Source: Bacteroidia bacterium
Lineage (GTDB): Bacteria; Bacteroidota; Bacteroidia; Cytophagales; Cyclobacteriaceae
DNA length: 42,966 nt
Direction of reading: 5' to 3'
Assembly: GCA_030430675.1 (NCBI GenBank)
Contig: JAUIKU010000015.1
Coordinates: 1-42,966, forward strand
Under the pieces are notes generated by a model. The model was not told where the DNA came from. It worked only from the letters and a program-made list of their open reading frames with translations, and did not search any database. A program made the position numbers and the translations under genes. Shown in pieces: positions 8,315 through 30,988 of this stretch. Position 1 is the stretch's first letter. Every line of letters begins with the position of its first letter.

Positions 8315-10216
8315 TCATTCGAGGTATTTATTATACCATTTCTGGAATACCATCAGTCCCCAAATGCGGGCTGGGCTATCACCGGGATCGCGGCTGTGTA
8401 ACCGGTTGATCAGTGCACCAACAGCATCCATATCGAAAATGCCCTGATCCTGTATTCTTTCTTTGCTCAACAATTCGTTCCTAATCACACCATCCAGTTC
8501 TTTTCGCATCCAGCCTAATAGCGGCACCTCAAAACCCTGCTTGCGGCGATTGTAAAGTGCATCGGGCAATGTACTCCTAAAAGTATCCTGAAGTAATCTC
8601 TTGCGCATCTTCCCCTGTATCTTGGAACTGAGAGGTAGTTTACTGGCAAATTCCACCAACTTATGATCCAGAAAAGGCACCCTTACTTCCAGTCCATGGG
8701 CCATGCTCATCATATCCACTTTCGTGAGCATATCGTTTGGTAGAACCAGCCTCAAATCGGTGTACAGCATATCATTTAAGTCAGGAGTAGTCCCCAGGTT
8801 TTTGAGAAAAATCTGTCGTCGACGCTCCACTTCTGCCTGGCTCATGTCGTGAGTAATACCGCTATTTAAAAGCTCCAGCGCTTCAGCGCGGGATGCGATG
8901 CCGGCCCAGTACCAGTATCTCTCGGAATCGGAAAGCTTTAAGCCCTGCGCCAACCGGTGCAGCTGGCGGAATTTATTGGTCAAGGTATTGTTTCGAGATT
9001 TGGGTAAGTATCCGGTAACTCCGGCCAGGCTCTTGATCAACGAATTGGAAAGACGCCCTTCCAGAGATCTTTTGAGCGCCAGATGCTTGTGATAACCTCC
9101 GAATAACTCATCTGCTCCATCACCTGAAAGCGCCACCTTTACCGACTGCCGGGTGAGTTTGCTCAATACATAAACCGGCAGTGCCGAACTATCCGCAAAG
9201 GGTTCATCCAGGTGTTCCCAGACATCAAACAGGCTTTGATGCAAATCTAGAGTACTCAATTCAAATACGGTGTGCCTGGTACCCAGCTTATCCGCCACCA
9301 TACGAGCATACTCCGTTTCATCGAAGTAGGGTTGGTCCCTGTAGCCAATAGAAAATGTGTTCAGGTCAGGATCATGACGGCTGGCCAGTGCGGTTACGAT
9401 AGAACTGTCAATACCGCCGCTGAGAAATGTCCCTAACGGAACATCCGCCACCATTCTGCTTACTACCGACTGCTCCATCAAACCAAACAACTCTTTTTGT
9501 TGCTGTTCATAGGAAAGCGGAGGTTTGGTCGCATTCTCAGGTTGTGGAAGGTTATAATAAGTCTGTGGTGCTATCCGGGGAGCGCTTACTTTGAGAAAGG
9601 TTCCCGGTGGCAATTTCCTGATCCCCTCCAGCATGGTATGCGGTGCCGGGACATAGTTCAACTCCAGGTACAGGTTCAGGGACTGGTAATCCAGGTTCCT
9701 GGGAATATTATAAGCCAGTAAGGACCTCATTTCGGAACCAAACACAAACTTATCCTGGTCGATGTAATACAACAGCGGATTGATCCCAAACCGGTCCCTT
9801 GCCAGGAACAACTCATTTTTTTCTAAGTCAAAAATGGCCAGTGCAAAACAGCCATTGAGCTTTTGCAAACATGCCTCTCCCTCCTGGATAAACAGGTTGA
9901 GCAGTACTTCTGTATCGGAATCCGATTTGAATATGGCTCCCTGATTGATCAGGGAATGTCGCAATCCCTGATAATTATATATTTCGCCGTTGTAAACGAT
10001 TTGGTAGCGACCGCTTTGGTCAGCCATGGGCTGATGACCGTTGGGGGTGGGATCTATTACAGAAAGACGCCGATGACCCAGTCCAACCCACTCCGACACG
10101 AAATTATTCTGGTAATCAGGACCCCGGTGCTTTAACTGGGAGGTGGCATTGGCCAGGTGAATCATGTGCATCCGCCCGATTTCATTAAAAGCCATTATCC
10201 CGGTAATCCCACACAT
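8315..10216 (-). CDS. asnB: asparagine synthase (glutamine-hydrolysing)
   Basis: A 633-residue class II amidotransferase that makes asparagine (or amidates a related acceptor) from aspartate, glutamine and ATP. The N-terminal nucleophile Cys2 follows the initiator Met (MCGITGIMAF), and the glutaminase domain shows HRGPD, HRRLSVID and YNGEIYNY. The synthetase domain has the ATP-pyrophosphatase loop FLSGGIDSS and SGDGADELFGGY. The C-terminal part (DMLTKVDMMSMAHGLEVRVPFLDH) is typical of the bacterial AsnB/AsnH group, which also includes enzymes of cell-surface polysaccharide loci, so the acceptor need not be free aspartate. Length is normal. It is divergent from the NlpC/P60 gene, with about 108 bases between them. 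Confidence 0.95.
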   Translation of the reverse strand: MCGITGIMAFNEIGRMHMIHLANATSQLKHRGPDYQNNFVSEWVGLGHRRLSVIDPTPNGHQPMADQSGRYQIVYNGEIYNYQGLRHSLINQGAIFKSDSDTEVLLNLFIQEGEACLQKLNGCFALAIFDLEKNELFLARDRFGINPLLYYIDQDKFVFGSEMRSLLAYNIPRNLDYQSLNLYLELNYVPAPHTMLEGIRKLPPGTFLKVSAPRIAPQTYYNLPQPENATKPPLSYEQQQKELFGLMEQSVVSRMVADVPLGTFLSGGIDSSIVTALASRHDPDLNTFSIGYRDQPYFDETEYARMVADKLGTRHTVFELSTLDLHQSLFDVWEHLDEPFADSSALPVYVLSKLTRQSVKVALSGDGADELFGGYHKHLALKRSLEGRLSNSLIKSLAGVTGYLPKSRNNTLTNKFRQLHRLAQGLKLSDSERYWYWAGIASRAEALELLNSGITHDMSQAEVERRRQIFLKNLGTTPDLNDMLYTDLRLVLPNDMLTKVDMMSMAHGLEVRVPFLDHKLVEFASKLPLSSKIQGKMRKRLLQDTFRSTLPDALYNRRKQGFEVPLLGWMRKELDGVIRNELLSKERIQDQGIFDMDAVGALINRLHSRDPGDSPARIWGLMVFQKWYNKYLE

Positions 10217-10275
10217 GATTCTTAATTAGAGAGCGCTAAAATAGTATATGTGCCTTTAAATTGTACAAATCGTTT

Positions 10276-20845: not shown

Positions 20846-20919
20846 TCCTCCTTAGCTCAGTTGGTTAGAGCGGCTGACTGTTAATCAGTAGGTCCTTGGT
20901 TCGAGCCCAAGAGGAGGAG
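20846..20919 (+). tRNA. tRNA-Asn (anticodon GTT), 3' half supplied by an integrated element
   Basis: A 74-nt cloverleaf. The acceptor stem TCCTCCT pairs perfectly with AGGAGGA, with discriminator G at 20919. The anticodon stem GCTGA/TCAGT encloses CTGTTAA with anticodon GTT. The T arm is CTTGG-TTCGAGC-CCAAG. From 20875 the sequence is repeated perfectly for 42 bases at 30940, so the 3' part is the crossover region of an integrated element and the gene was restored on integration. Confidence 0.96.
20875..20916 (+). repeat. attL, 42-bp direct repeat within tRNA-Asn
   Basis: Identical over 42 bases to 30940-30981. It begins with TGACTGTTAATCAG (anticodon arm) and ends CCAAGAGGAG (acceptor stem). 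After the identical block the copies differ by one base and then share AGCTT. Confidence 0.93.
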
Positions 20920-20927
20920 CTTGAAAG

Positions 20928-20968: not shown

Positions 20969-20986
20969 TGCCGTGTTTTTGCCGTG
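20969..20986. promoter_or_regulatory. candidate integrase arm-type sites, left end
   Basis: TGCCGTG occurs twice with an exact 11-base spacing (20969 and 20980). The right end carries a similar pair (TTTGCACGT at 30816 and 30827) with the same spacing; read on the - strand both show ACG(T)GCAAA-like motifs. Confidence 0.4.
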
Positions 20987-21246
20987 CTTTTGAACAATCT
21001 GGAATTGTGTAAATACGGTGAGTTAGACCTGATGGTTCCCAACATGGGCTCTTACGATTCATATAAACCCTTCCCTGTCATCGGTGTCTTGGGATCATTC
21101 TAAACAAGAGATTCGGAATCAGTAGGTAACATTAATTCCCTTTACAATTTACAGGCTCGGCCATATTGAGCAACCTCAATCCTGCTTGATTTTTTGACCC
21201 GTTATTACGAACTTATTATTCTTCTCAACAAACTGTCATCTGAACT

Positions 21247-27567: not shown

Positions 27568-27999
27568 GGCTTAATTCTATAATCTTACCTCAACGAGGAC
27601 CTAAATTGGTTTACAACAAACGACAAAATAGGGTCCTAAAATTCTATGACATTACAAGGGCCAAGAAGCGTGCCATCCTTAGATAGCGCAATTATCGCCT
27701 GGTAATATTAATAGACTGCACGTGTGCGTACTATTTTGTTCGAAATCGTACGTTTTGAAGAAGTTGAAGTAGGGTCAAGTCTGACAGTCCATTTCCAGTG
27801 TAGCTACATTAGTGGCTATGAACCCCATTGCTCTCAAAAGGATGTTTTGGTTCGAAAGAACGGATATCAAGTTCAGCCTCATAGATCTCTAGCTCGGAAA
27901 ACTAAATCTCTAATCGATTCTTAGAAATTCATATCTTTATTTGACACACAATAGATCATACACAAGATTTTTTTGTTAACTAGGTGACAAACAAATGTT
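27568..27999. other. intergenic stretch between divergent cargo genes
   Basis: No supported gene. A 66-codon GTG-started frame at 27724-27924 has no recognisable features and atypical composition, so it is not called. The region must hold the promoters of the permease (-) and the AlbA_2 gene (+). GGACC at 27597 and GGTCC near 27633 form a short inverted repeat, of uncertain meaning. Confidence 0.4.
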
Positions 28000-28021
28000 T
28001 CTTATTTGATGGTTATTTGAT
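28000..28021 (+). repeat. 22-bp direct repeat, upstream copy
   Basis: Identical to 29474-29495. Internally it is two copies of TTATTTGAT spaced 11 bases apart. It ends 3 bases before the start codon of the AlbA_2 gene. Confidence 0.9.
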
Positions 28022-28024
28022 AGA

Positions 28025-29473
28025 ATGGAGGAAAAACAGTTAACGAAGTTGCTTTTAGATTTAGTTAAACAACCGAACGAAAGTGAATGGGTTGAATTCA
28101 AACTTAACTACCATTCTGATGAAGAAATTGGAGAAAGAATTTCAGCACTTTCAAATGGCGCTTGCCTTCATAATCAACAATTTGGATACCTAGTCTTTGG
28201 AGTAAAAGACGGTACTCATAGTATTGAAGGAACAACATTCAAACCCAAGACATCGAAAAGGGGCAAAGAAGATTTGGAACATTGGTTGTTACAGAGATTA
28301 AATCCAAGAATTGACTTCAGCATCTACGAATTTGACTATGAGGGAAGGCATATCGCTATTTTCATTATTCCTGCCACTATTAATCAACCAGTTGAATTTT
28401 TGCACCAGGCATATATAAGAGTCTCAAGTATCACCAGGAAACTAAATGATTTTCCAGAAAAGCAACGAAAGATATGGAAAAAGAGTCCAGAAAAAGTATT
28501 CGAACTTGAGATTGCATTAAATAAACTCGATTCCGATCAGGTAGTCAAACTTGTAGATGTTCAAGCGTACTTCGACCTGCTTGATCTCCCACTACCTTCC
28601 ACACGAGAATCCATCATAGAAAAGTTCATTTCTGAAAGACTTTTAACTAAAAATCAGTCCAGTTACTCTGTCACAAATCTTGGAGCCATACTTTTTGCCA
28701 AGAATCTAGCGGACTTTCCGGATTTAGCAAGAAAATCAATAAGAGTAATAGTATACAAGGGAAAAAACAAAATTGAAACCATAAGGGAGCAAATCGGGGT
28801 TAGAGGTTATGCTGTCGGTTTTGATGGATTAATCAATTGGGTAAACAGTCAGTTACCGGCAAATGAAGAGATTGGAAAAGCCTTTCGAACCGAATCAACA
28901 ATGTACCCAGAGATTGCAGTTCGAGAGCTTGTCGCAAATGCTATAATACATCAAGATTTTCGAGTAAAAGGATATCCAACCATCGAAATCTATTCAGACC
29001 GTATTGAGATTTCTAATCCTGGACTACCATTGATAACGCCCACTCGATTCATAGACGAATATCAATCCAGAAATGAAAGATTGGCAGATTTAATGAGGCG
29101 TTTAAAAATTTGTGAAGAAAAAGGAAGTGGTATAGACAAGGTAATCTTTTCTTGTGAGGTTTATCAACTTCCGGCTCCAGACTTTAGAATAAAGGAGGCT
29201 CATACATCAGCAATTCTTTTTTCCTATTTAGAGCTTAAAGCGATGGAGAAAGAGGATAAGCTTCGAGCTTGTTACCAACATGCAGCGTTAAAATATGTAT
29301 CAAATGAAAAAATGACCAATCAATCCTTACGCGAAAGATTCAAAATTGAAGACCACAATGCTGCACTAGCTTCAAGAATCATTAGAGATACCTTAGAAGA
29401 AGGGTTGATCAAAGAAGATGACCCCTCAAGTAGTTCAAGGAAATACAAAAAATATATTCCTTTTTGGGCATAA
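28025..29473 (+). CDS. AlbA_2 (Schlafen-type) and HATPase domain protein
   Basis: 482 residues. The N-terminal AlbA_2 domain (about 5-140) shows ESEWVEFKLNYHSDEEIGER and SALSNGACLHNQQFGYLVFG, a pattern shared with the Schlafen AlbA_2 nucleic-acid-binding or nuclease-like domain. The C-terminal half has a GHKL-type ATP-binding fold (HATPase_c_4): AVRELVANAIIHQDFR with the Asn/His motif, IEIYSDRIEISNPG, and EEKGSGIDKVIFSCE. A winged-helix segment follows (about 415-475). Such proteins are annotated as ATP-dependent transcriptional regulators or helicase-like, and are frequent in defence islands. The gene is bracketed almost exactly by a 22-bp direct repeat. It converges on the integrase. Confidence 0.88.
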   Translation: MEEKQLTKLLLDLVKQPNESEWVEFKLNYHSDEEIGERISALSNGACLHNQQFGYLVFGVKDGTHSIEGTTFKPKTSKRGKEDLEHWLLQRLNPRIDFSIYEFDYEGRHIAIFIIPATINQPVEFLHQAYIRVSSITRKLNDFPEKQRKIWKKSPEKVFELEIALNKLDSDQVVKLVDVQAYFDLLDLPLPSTRESIIEKFISERLLTKNQSSYSVTNLGAILFAKNLADFPDLARKSIRVIVYKGKNKIETIREQIGVRGYAVGFDGLINWVNSQLPANEEIGKAFRTESTMYPEIAVRELVANAIIHQDFRVKGYPTIEIYSDRIEISNPGLPLITPTRFIDEYQSRNERLADLMRRLKICEEKGSGIDKVIFSCEVYQLPAPDFRIKEAHTSAILFSYLELKAMEKEDKLRACYQHAALKYVSNEKMTNQSLRERFKIEDHNAALASRIIRDTLEEGLIKEDDPSSSSRKYKKYIPFWA

Positions 29474-29495
29474 TCTTATTTGATGGTTATTTGAT
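29474..29495 (+). repeat. 22-bp direct repeat, downstream copy
   Basis: Identical to 28000-28021 and begins at the base after the AlbA_2 gene's stop codon. An 11-base half copy (TCTTATTTGAT) occurs at 29548-29558 in the 3' end of the integrase gene. Confidence 0.9.
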
Positions 29496-29539: not shown

Positions 29540-30799
29540 TTAGATGTTCTTATTTGATTTTAAGGATGTAGAACCGTCCCCTCCCCCAATTACCTGCTCA
29601 TTATACTGATCCAAAACATCTTGTTTTAAACTGGACAAATAAACCTGGGTGGTTGACAACTTTTCATGCCCTAGCATTTCACTGATAGCGGTTACAGGTA
29701 CCCCCAGGTTATTAGCAATGGATGCAAAAGAATGCCTGGAAACATAGGAGGTCAGATTCTCTTCAATGCCTGCCAATTTAGCGATGTCTTTGAGTCTCTG
29801 GTTGTGGCGTTTGTGGGCCCATTGTACATCTTTATATTGACCGATCAATGATTCTCTCTTTACAATGGGTAAAATAAAATCTTCGGGCTCTTTATTCTTC
29901 AGGTATCCCTTTAAAATTGATTCCAGATTAGGCGTAATCTTGATATCGTAGAACCTACCGGTTTTGCGTCTTTTGTACTGCACCCTGCCATCAACGATAT
30001 TCTTCAGCTTTAGGAAAGCTAGATCCATAAAAGGTGCACCCTGAAGATAAAAGCTCATTAAAAATATATTGCGGGCATGATAAAGCGGATCAGTAGGTTT
30101 GAAATCCAGTGCTATAATTTTCTGAATGGCTTCATACGCTATAGCTCGTTTTTTAGTGGGCTTAGTCTTAATGGTGTATTGTTTAAAAGGATACGCCTCC
30201 TGATCGGCAATCCCTGCTTTTATGGCCTTGTTATAAATGGCCCGTATGGTCCTCATATAGACTGCTAACCCATTTGCACTATGCCCCTTAGCCAGGAAAC
30301 TGTGCTCGAATCGCATCAGCCACTGATAGTTGATCTCGTTAAACAACAACTTCTTTTCTTTTTGAAATTTCTTTACCTGGTTGAGCACATTTCTATAACT
30401 CCTGGCGGTGCCTAACCTTCCTTCTTCTACCAGGCTGCTTATCAGCTGGTCAGTAAATGAATTGAATGACTGGTTTTGGGCTTTCCCAGTGATTCTTTGT
30501 TTTACTTCCTGGATGGACATATATCTCAATTCACTGGCTTCATGGAGTTTAGTCAGGATGTCAATTGATTTTGCCTTTTGTTTTTGGATATGATTATTGA
30601 TCCTGGTAATGCTACCATATCCTTTATAGGTGGTCTTTATGCAGGAATTCTTAGCATCCCAGAATTTAACTGGCACGGAATATCCGGTGGAAACAGAGGT
30701 GGTCCTTTTGCTGTTATGGGTGATTCTAAGTATTATGGGACAGGAGCCATTCTTCTTCTCACGCCTGGTATCCAGTGAGATTTTGACGAAGGTATTCAT
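29540..30799 (-). CDS. tyrosine recombinase (integrase) of the tRNA-Asn element
   Basis: 419 residues in the Bacteroidota layout: an arm-type DNA-binding N-terminus (about 1-90; KISLDTRREKKNG), a SAM-like core-binding domain (about 108-205; FNSFTDQLI, TARSYRNVLNQV), and a catalytic domain (about 220-395). Visible catalytic residues are Lys279 (YKRRKTGRF), Arg355 and His356 (SYVSRHSFAS), His378 (LGHEKL) and nucleophile Tyr387 (TTQVYLSS). The position that usually holds the first Arg (RGMSFVDMA in relatives) is Gln253 (LQGAPFMDLA). It should mediate insertion at the tRNA-Asn site. The gene lies 140 bases from the right attachment repeat, and the promoter probably lies among the arm-type sites. 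Confidence 0.92.
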   Translation of the reverse strand: MNTFVKISLDTRREKKNGSCPIILRITHNSKRTTSVSTGYSVPVKFWDAKNSCIKTTYKGYGSITRINNHIQKQKAKSIDILTKLHEASELRYMSIQEVKQRITGKAQNQSFNSFTDQLISSLVEEGRLGTARSYRNVLNQVKKFQKEKKLLFNEINYQWLMRFEHSFLAKGHSANGLAVYMRTIRAIYNKAIKAGIADQEAYPFKQYTIKTKPTKKRAIAYEAIQKIIALDFKPTDPLYHARNIFLMSFYLQGAPFMDLAFLKLKNIVDGRVQYKRRKTGRFYDIKITPNLESILKGYLKNKEPEDFILPIVKRESLIGQYKDVQWAHKRHNQRLKDIAKLAGIEENLTSYVSRHSFASIANNLGVPVTAISEMLGHEKLSTTQVYLSSLKQDVLDQYNEQVIGGGDGSTSLKSNKNI

Positions 30800-30813: not shown

Positions 30814-30835
30814 AATTTGCACGTAATTTGCACGT
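30814..30835. promoter_or_regulatory. candidate integrase arm-type sites, right end
   Basis: AATTTGCACGT is repeated in perfect tandem (30814-30824 and 30825-30835), upstream of the integrase start and between it and attR. The 11-base spacing puts both sites on one DNA face. Confidence 0.5.
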
Positions 30836-30939: not shown

Positions 30940-30988
30940 TGACTGTTAATCAGTAGGTCCTTGGTTCGAGCCCAAGAGGAGTAGCTTC
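30940..30988 (+). pseudogene. attR: displaced, decayed 3' end of tRNA-Asn
   Basis: The first 42 bases (30940-30981) repeat 20875-20916 exactly. The rest of the acceptor stem would read AGGAGTA, whose T at 30982 cannot pair with the tRNA 5' strand, whereas the left copy has AGGAGGA. It lacks the 5' half of the tRNA and cannot fold, so it is a remnant of the original 3' end pushed aside by integration. Confidence 0.88.

Follow-up and report, generated by a model that had tools for sequence, protein, structure and literature searches.

Bacterial proteins that join a Schlafen domain to a minimal histidine-kinase ATPase and a winged helix (Schlafen-HK-wHTH) are listed among the auxiliary effectors of BREX and its related systems, an architecture known as an RNase effector from the BREX loci of at least 1017 taxa (PMC12839542). 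That paper treats these proteins as RNases, and a keyword search of it turned up no mention of repeats. Direct repeats with a dedicated reader are known from type I restriction-modification, where RptR, a 79-aa helical dimer, represses by reading TAGCTA direct repeats at the promoter of the whole operon, and where the interval between hsdS and hsdR is a spot for embedded defence genes (PMC12255303). C proteins of type II systems and the WYL repressors BrxR and CapW are likewise autoregulators that control defence genes through operators; they are unrelated to the protein described below, and none is reported with a Schlafen domain in the same paper (PMC12255303).

We analysed a window of 42,966 nucleotides from a Cyclobacteriaceae genome (contig JAUIKU010000015.1), in which a Schlafen gene is bracketed by direct repeats. 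Its product has the same domain order as the Schlafen-HK-wHTH proteins, and its family likewise occurs in defence operons; two homologues are, like the proteins of that paper (PMC12839542), closely linked to a BREX or BREX-related core locus: L017 precedes a PglZ-like gene, and L063 belongs to a DUF499/DUF1156/PLD locus. The window copy, in contrast, stands alone on a tRNA island with TrlF, MacB/FtsX and integrase genes, and no BREX gene was found on this island. As with RptR, there are direct repeats whose predicted reader is sometimes encoded with a type I restriction-modification system; unlike RptR, that reader is a three-domain protein of 482 aa and the boxes have an 11-bp period (TTATTTGAT in the window) and lie mainly downstream, which places the protein outside the RptR group. 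Our search of the freely readable literature found no published description of such boxes, or of a residue code, at Schlafen genes, and an earlier description is possible.

The gene (28025–29473, forward strand) encodes an SLFN_AlbA_2 domain, an HATPase_c_4 domain and a C-terminal winged helix, as assigned by Pfam, alignment, AlphaFold and Foldseek. The AlbA_2 domain scores 68.3 bits against a Pfam cutoff of 25.3, and the AlphaFold model has a mean pLDDT of 88. In this model, the winged helix spans approximately residues 409–482, with helices at 409–425, 432–439 and 443–458 and strands at 462–464 and 477–479, the third helix (443–458) being the predicted recognition helix. A Foldseek search places PDB 3LMM (DIP2311 of C. 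diphtheriae) at the top, followed by Schlafen 11, 13, 14 and 5; histidine-kinase ATPase domains rank below these. The uncharacterised 3LMM protein is also the one relative by sequence (E = 5e-10) that has a solved structure, and the match to human SLFN5, SLFN11, SLFN13 and SLFN14 lies in the Schlafen domain. We know of no animal Schlafen with this HATPase-wHTH arrangement. Residues E19, E24 and D62 are spaced like the RNase triad of rat SLFN13, E205/E210/D248 (PMC5862951), a correspondence drawn from sequence spacing rather than structural superposition. Among homologues, E19 is kept in 83 of 84 and E24 in 79 of 85, and position 62 holds D (71 homologues) or N (14 homologues). The protein is a bacterial relative of the antiviral Schlafen RNases, with a putative RNase activity of its own.

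The 22-bp perfect direct repeat that the initial annotation saw bracketing this gene, TCTTATTTGATGGTTATTTGAT, is present at 28000–28021 and 29474–29495, identical at 22 of 22 positions. The upstream copy ends 3 nt before the ATG at 28025, and the downstream copy starts on the base after the stop codon (29471–29473). The repeats are real and beyond chance in the window: only 0.01 copies of TCTTATTTGATGGTTATTTGAT at up to 3 mismatches occur in the shuffled window, and the 9-mer TTATTTGAT occurs 5 times against 0.92 expected. Across the whole genome, the exact tandem pair is unique to this site, with three other places matching at 2 mismatches, which rules out a genome-wide repeat element and answers the annotation's question of whether the repeat is common.

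Written as TTATTTGAY, the boxes number six, not five, all on the forward strand. A single box, TTATTTGAC, lies at 27937–27945, 88 nt before the ATG and 65 bp before the upstream pair. That pair, a predicted operator of the form TCTTATTTGAT-GG-TTATTTGAT, has boxes at 28002–28010 and 28013–28021 (−23 and −12), and the identical, likewise predicted operator after the gene has boxes at 29476–29484 and 29487–29495 (+3 and +14 from the stop). A last single box, TTATTTGAT, lies at 29550–29558 (+77) and overlaps the 3′ end of the integrase gene. The homologue L006 (86% identical) has boxes at −88, −22 and −11 and at +3, +14 and +77; it has no integrase downstream, yet the +77 box is present. The 29550 box is therefore part of the gene's own array, and its equal spacing in L006 rules out a chance match; the half copy that had been noticed in the integrase end exists, but it does not belong to the integrase. 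Box positions are kept between the window and L006, and the sequence between the boxes has diverged. The spacer, read by eye for Bacteroidota or sigma-70 promoters, held no convincing −33/−7 or −35/−10 elements at a fixed distance.

A collection of homologues drawn from genomic, plasmid, phage and viral-contig sequences gave 94 distinct copies that extend to the C-terminus and are 34–86% identical; Bacteroidota, Proteobacteria, Desulfosarcina and E. coli satellites are among the sources. A 9-mer repeated at a lag of exactly 11 occurs within 200 bp after the stop in 59 of the 94, against 3–4 in the same test on control gene ends, on DNA 800 bp further on and on shuffles, and distances other than 11 stay mostly near background. 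Box pairs are found in the flanks of 66 of the 94 loci, with the first downstream pair at a median of 5 nt after the stop. Upstream pairs depend on context: none of the 21 operon copies, which closely follow another gene, has one, against 13 of 39 solo copies (P = 0.002). The upstream boxes take nearly fixed positions at about −88 and −23/−12 in the window, L006, L070 and L071, with the −88 position common to the first three and near-identical in L071; L092 and L102 are similar upstream, with a box core at about −85. In operon copies, the last box often ends 12–50 nt short of the following start codon. The gaps that separate box clusters equal a multiple of 11, give or take 1 bp, in 33 of 40 cases (11 expected), mostly 66, 88, 110 or 132 bp, and their phase fits 11 rather than the 10.5 bp of the helical turn, which could reflect stepwise assembly with an 11-bp footprint on DNA or descent from a longer tandem array. 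The boxes travel with the gene family rather than marking a cassette boundary of this island. Spacers often carry a short palindrome (approximately YTGATAWTCAR) in a similar position, 8–18 nt before the next box, for example in L010, L056, L057 and L007, and L058 has about nine units of approximately 132 bp straight after the gene (9150–10260), forming a 1.1-kb array that runs towards a converging mutS.

The sequence of the boxes varies by lineage (TTATTTGAT, TTATGTGAT, ATGTAAC, TTAATTGAT, TTACTTGAT or TTGCTTGAT), and this variation follows residues that open the predicted recognition helix, where the window gene encodes N-A-A (codons 445–447, 29357–29365, forward strand). Residues 446–447 pair with the box core as follows: AA or SA with TTTGA, YS with TGTGA, YP with TGTAA, K with ATTGA, and R or Q with CTTGA. 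YP goes with ATGTAAY in 13 of 13 cases, YS or YA with ATGTGAY in 17 of 18, K with AATTGAY in 8 of 8, A or S with NTTTGAY in 22 of 24, and R or Q with CTTGA in 3 of 3. Ranked by information about box class, columns 446 and 447 stand first and second of all protein columns (1.19 and 1.00 bits above shuffles; the next reaches 0.47), with residue 446 tracking core positions 2–3 and residue 447 tracking position 5. On a tree built from the N-terminal 400 residues, leaving out the winged helix, box class switches on 18 branches, 13 of which also carry a residue switch; chance gives a mean of 2.3 such coincidences and a maximum of 8 in 10,000 draws. The rule was formulated from earlier loci, before L099–L132 were examined for boxes, and it fits 15 of the 16 box-bearing loci among these, the miss being L113. 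Exceptions are NSA with GCTTGAT instead of ATTTGAT, in L113 and in the E. coli locus L172, and the mixed boxes of L021.

This co-change of boxes with recognition-helix residues makes DNA binding by the protein at the boxes very probable, and as expected of a self-regulator, it is the sites next to the gene that co-vary with the DNA-binding residues. The co-change lends strong support to one proposal of the initial annotation, that the repeats are paired operators for the encoded winged-helix protein. To judge from the alignments, two amino acids largely suffice to predict the box sequence, a residue-to-base code simple enough to yield predictions for dozens of genomes, and one widespread branch of the bacterial Schlafens, currently described as RNase effectors, would also be sequence-specific DNA-binding proteins with operators of their own. 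Among the 28 of 94 loci without an 11-bp pair downstream, some have other repeats and others none, and those with other repeats, at intervals of 54–88 bp, mostly differ at N445. Such repeats were seen in L061, L088, L089, L095, L098, L099 and L103, for example TTATTTAATTAGAATTCGGAAA, 54–67 or 87 bp apart, and divergent homologues of this kind carry K, Q or D in place of N445, possibly representing further specificities.

The neighbourhoods of operon copies point to restriction systems. In what is a convenience sample, with many neighbours cut by the 1.5-kb flanks, 11 of 23 tightly preceding genes match HsdS, the type I specificity subunit, and 15 of 41 following co-directional genes match HsdR; the gene often lies between hsdS and hsdR, with boxes before hsdR. 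Following genes seen in single cases encode a phospholipase D anti-phage protein, DISARM DrmD, NACHT proteins and, in L017, a PglZ-like protein. With HsdR of L056 as query, we collected 30 hsdR-relative loci, in all of which the Schlafen gene is absent near hsdR; among the approximately 27 with a readable hsdR start, only L142 has boxes. There, the boxes are preceded by S-Y-I-P-F-W-A-stop, the C-terminus left by a copy since deleted. Among the relatives examined, hsdR genes lacking both the gene and any remnant of it showed no boxes, a distribution that also fits the paired-operator proposal. Only the final codons and the array survive ahead of hsdR (L142, 670–1500), next to a 153-aa ORF that looks like a possible IS200/REP-type transposase. 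Boxes may thus serve as a marker to find or delimit such modules, deleted ones included.

Boxes, their conservation, their co-change with the recognition helix and the gene order, all read from sequence comparison, lead us to infer, with a probability of about 0.82, that the repeats are operators for the protein they flank, serving autorepression and the gating of the next defence gene. Each operator, a pair of boxes 11 bp apart, would be contacted by the first residues of the recognition helix, 446–447. At a solo gene, protein bound to boxes at about −88, −23 and −12 would repress its own expression, keeping the probable Schlafen-type RNase low. Downstream boxes would stop or control transcription into the next gene, in defence operons commonly that of a restriction effector: hsdR or, once each, a PglZ-like gene and a phospholipase D anti-phage gene. 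Infection would relieve repression, perhaps through the HATPase domain, and both the Schlafen protein and the product of the next gene would rise. Such an arrangement is a possible means of restraining type I restriction and other defence operons in which a Schlafen gene is embedded. Against control of the next gene, the downstream array of solo copies often faces a converging gene, as in the window, L006 and L058. A bolder version, which we regard as unlikely, has the protein assembling along DNA in 11-bp steps from seeding boxes, silencing the next defence gene while holding the Schlafen RNase inactive, until loss of the assembly on infection sets RNase and restriction free together.

The initial annotation also offered site-specific cassette exchange, in which the repeats would be recombination sites for the neighbouring integrase to swap genes. 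The setting invites it, with the gene lying exactly between identical repeats, beside an integrase, on a 10-kb tRNA-Asn island, and blastn similarity between the window and L006 running from box to box. That similarity encloses the same gene, though, and we consider exchange highly improbable, since the gene keeps its repeats in operons and at unrelated sites that have no integrase, the repeats near the att sites of the integrase itself are different, and a recombination site is not expected to track the recognition-helix residues of a cargo protein. The annotation's own check, a look for different cargo between such repeats, came up empty, every locus examined having the Schlafen gene. A minimal transposable element, with the boxes as its ends, would account for the first downstream box lying a few nucleotides after the stop and for gene and boxes moving together among very different neighbourhoods, but box number, spacing and side vary, operon copies have no upstream boxes (0 of 21), and Pfam finds no recombinase domain in the protein, making this quite improbable.

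Transcribed 3′ repeats might instead restrain or guide the Schlafen RNase as RNA, in the manner of a type III toxin-antitoxin system. The arrays do follow the stop codon directly, on the coding strand, their spacers often hold the palindrome, and Schlafen domains bind and cut RNA (PMC5862951). In type III systems the array that acts as RNA is upstream of the toxin; the arrays here are mainly downstream. Against the RNA reading, boxes also occur upstream of the ATG at fixed positions, and the box itself is not self-complementary. We dropped this RNA-structure reading once the recognition-helix correlation appeared: box bases track two residues at the helix tip, as expected for major-groove DNA contacts, leaving an RNA role improbable. 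Functionless tandem repeats decayed after slippage would explain why most cluster gaps are multiples of 11 bp, the inner 11-mers having decayed, yet box positions are kept in the window, L006 and L070 despite diverged spacers, and boxes change together with the protein, so decay alone is scarcely credible. Operators read by the flanked protein are the reading that we retain.

The island itself extends from tRNA-Asn (20846–20920) to a 48-bp copy of the tRNA 3′ end (30940–30987), the att repeat, and besides the Schlafen and tyrosine integrase genes it carries genes for an HTH_17 excisionase-like protein, a TrlF-family ATPase (NCBIfam NF045780, E = 2.6e-197) and a MacB/FtsX permease. An empty tRNA-Asn site was sought in the same genus, and the matches were short. 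Two other direct repeats with an 11-bp period lie near the att ends, at 20969–20990 and 30816–30835 (TGCCGTGYTTT and TTTGCACGT); their units, at 20969/20980 and 30816/30827, are unlike the gene boxes and are probably arm-type sites of the integrase. In E. coli, a satellite-like element next to retron St85, in the vicinity of setC, houses the copies L172 and L173; L172, itself beside the retron, has two TTGCTTGATGGTTGCTTGAT pairs after its stop codon. These copies offer a convenient laboratory model.
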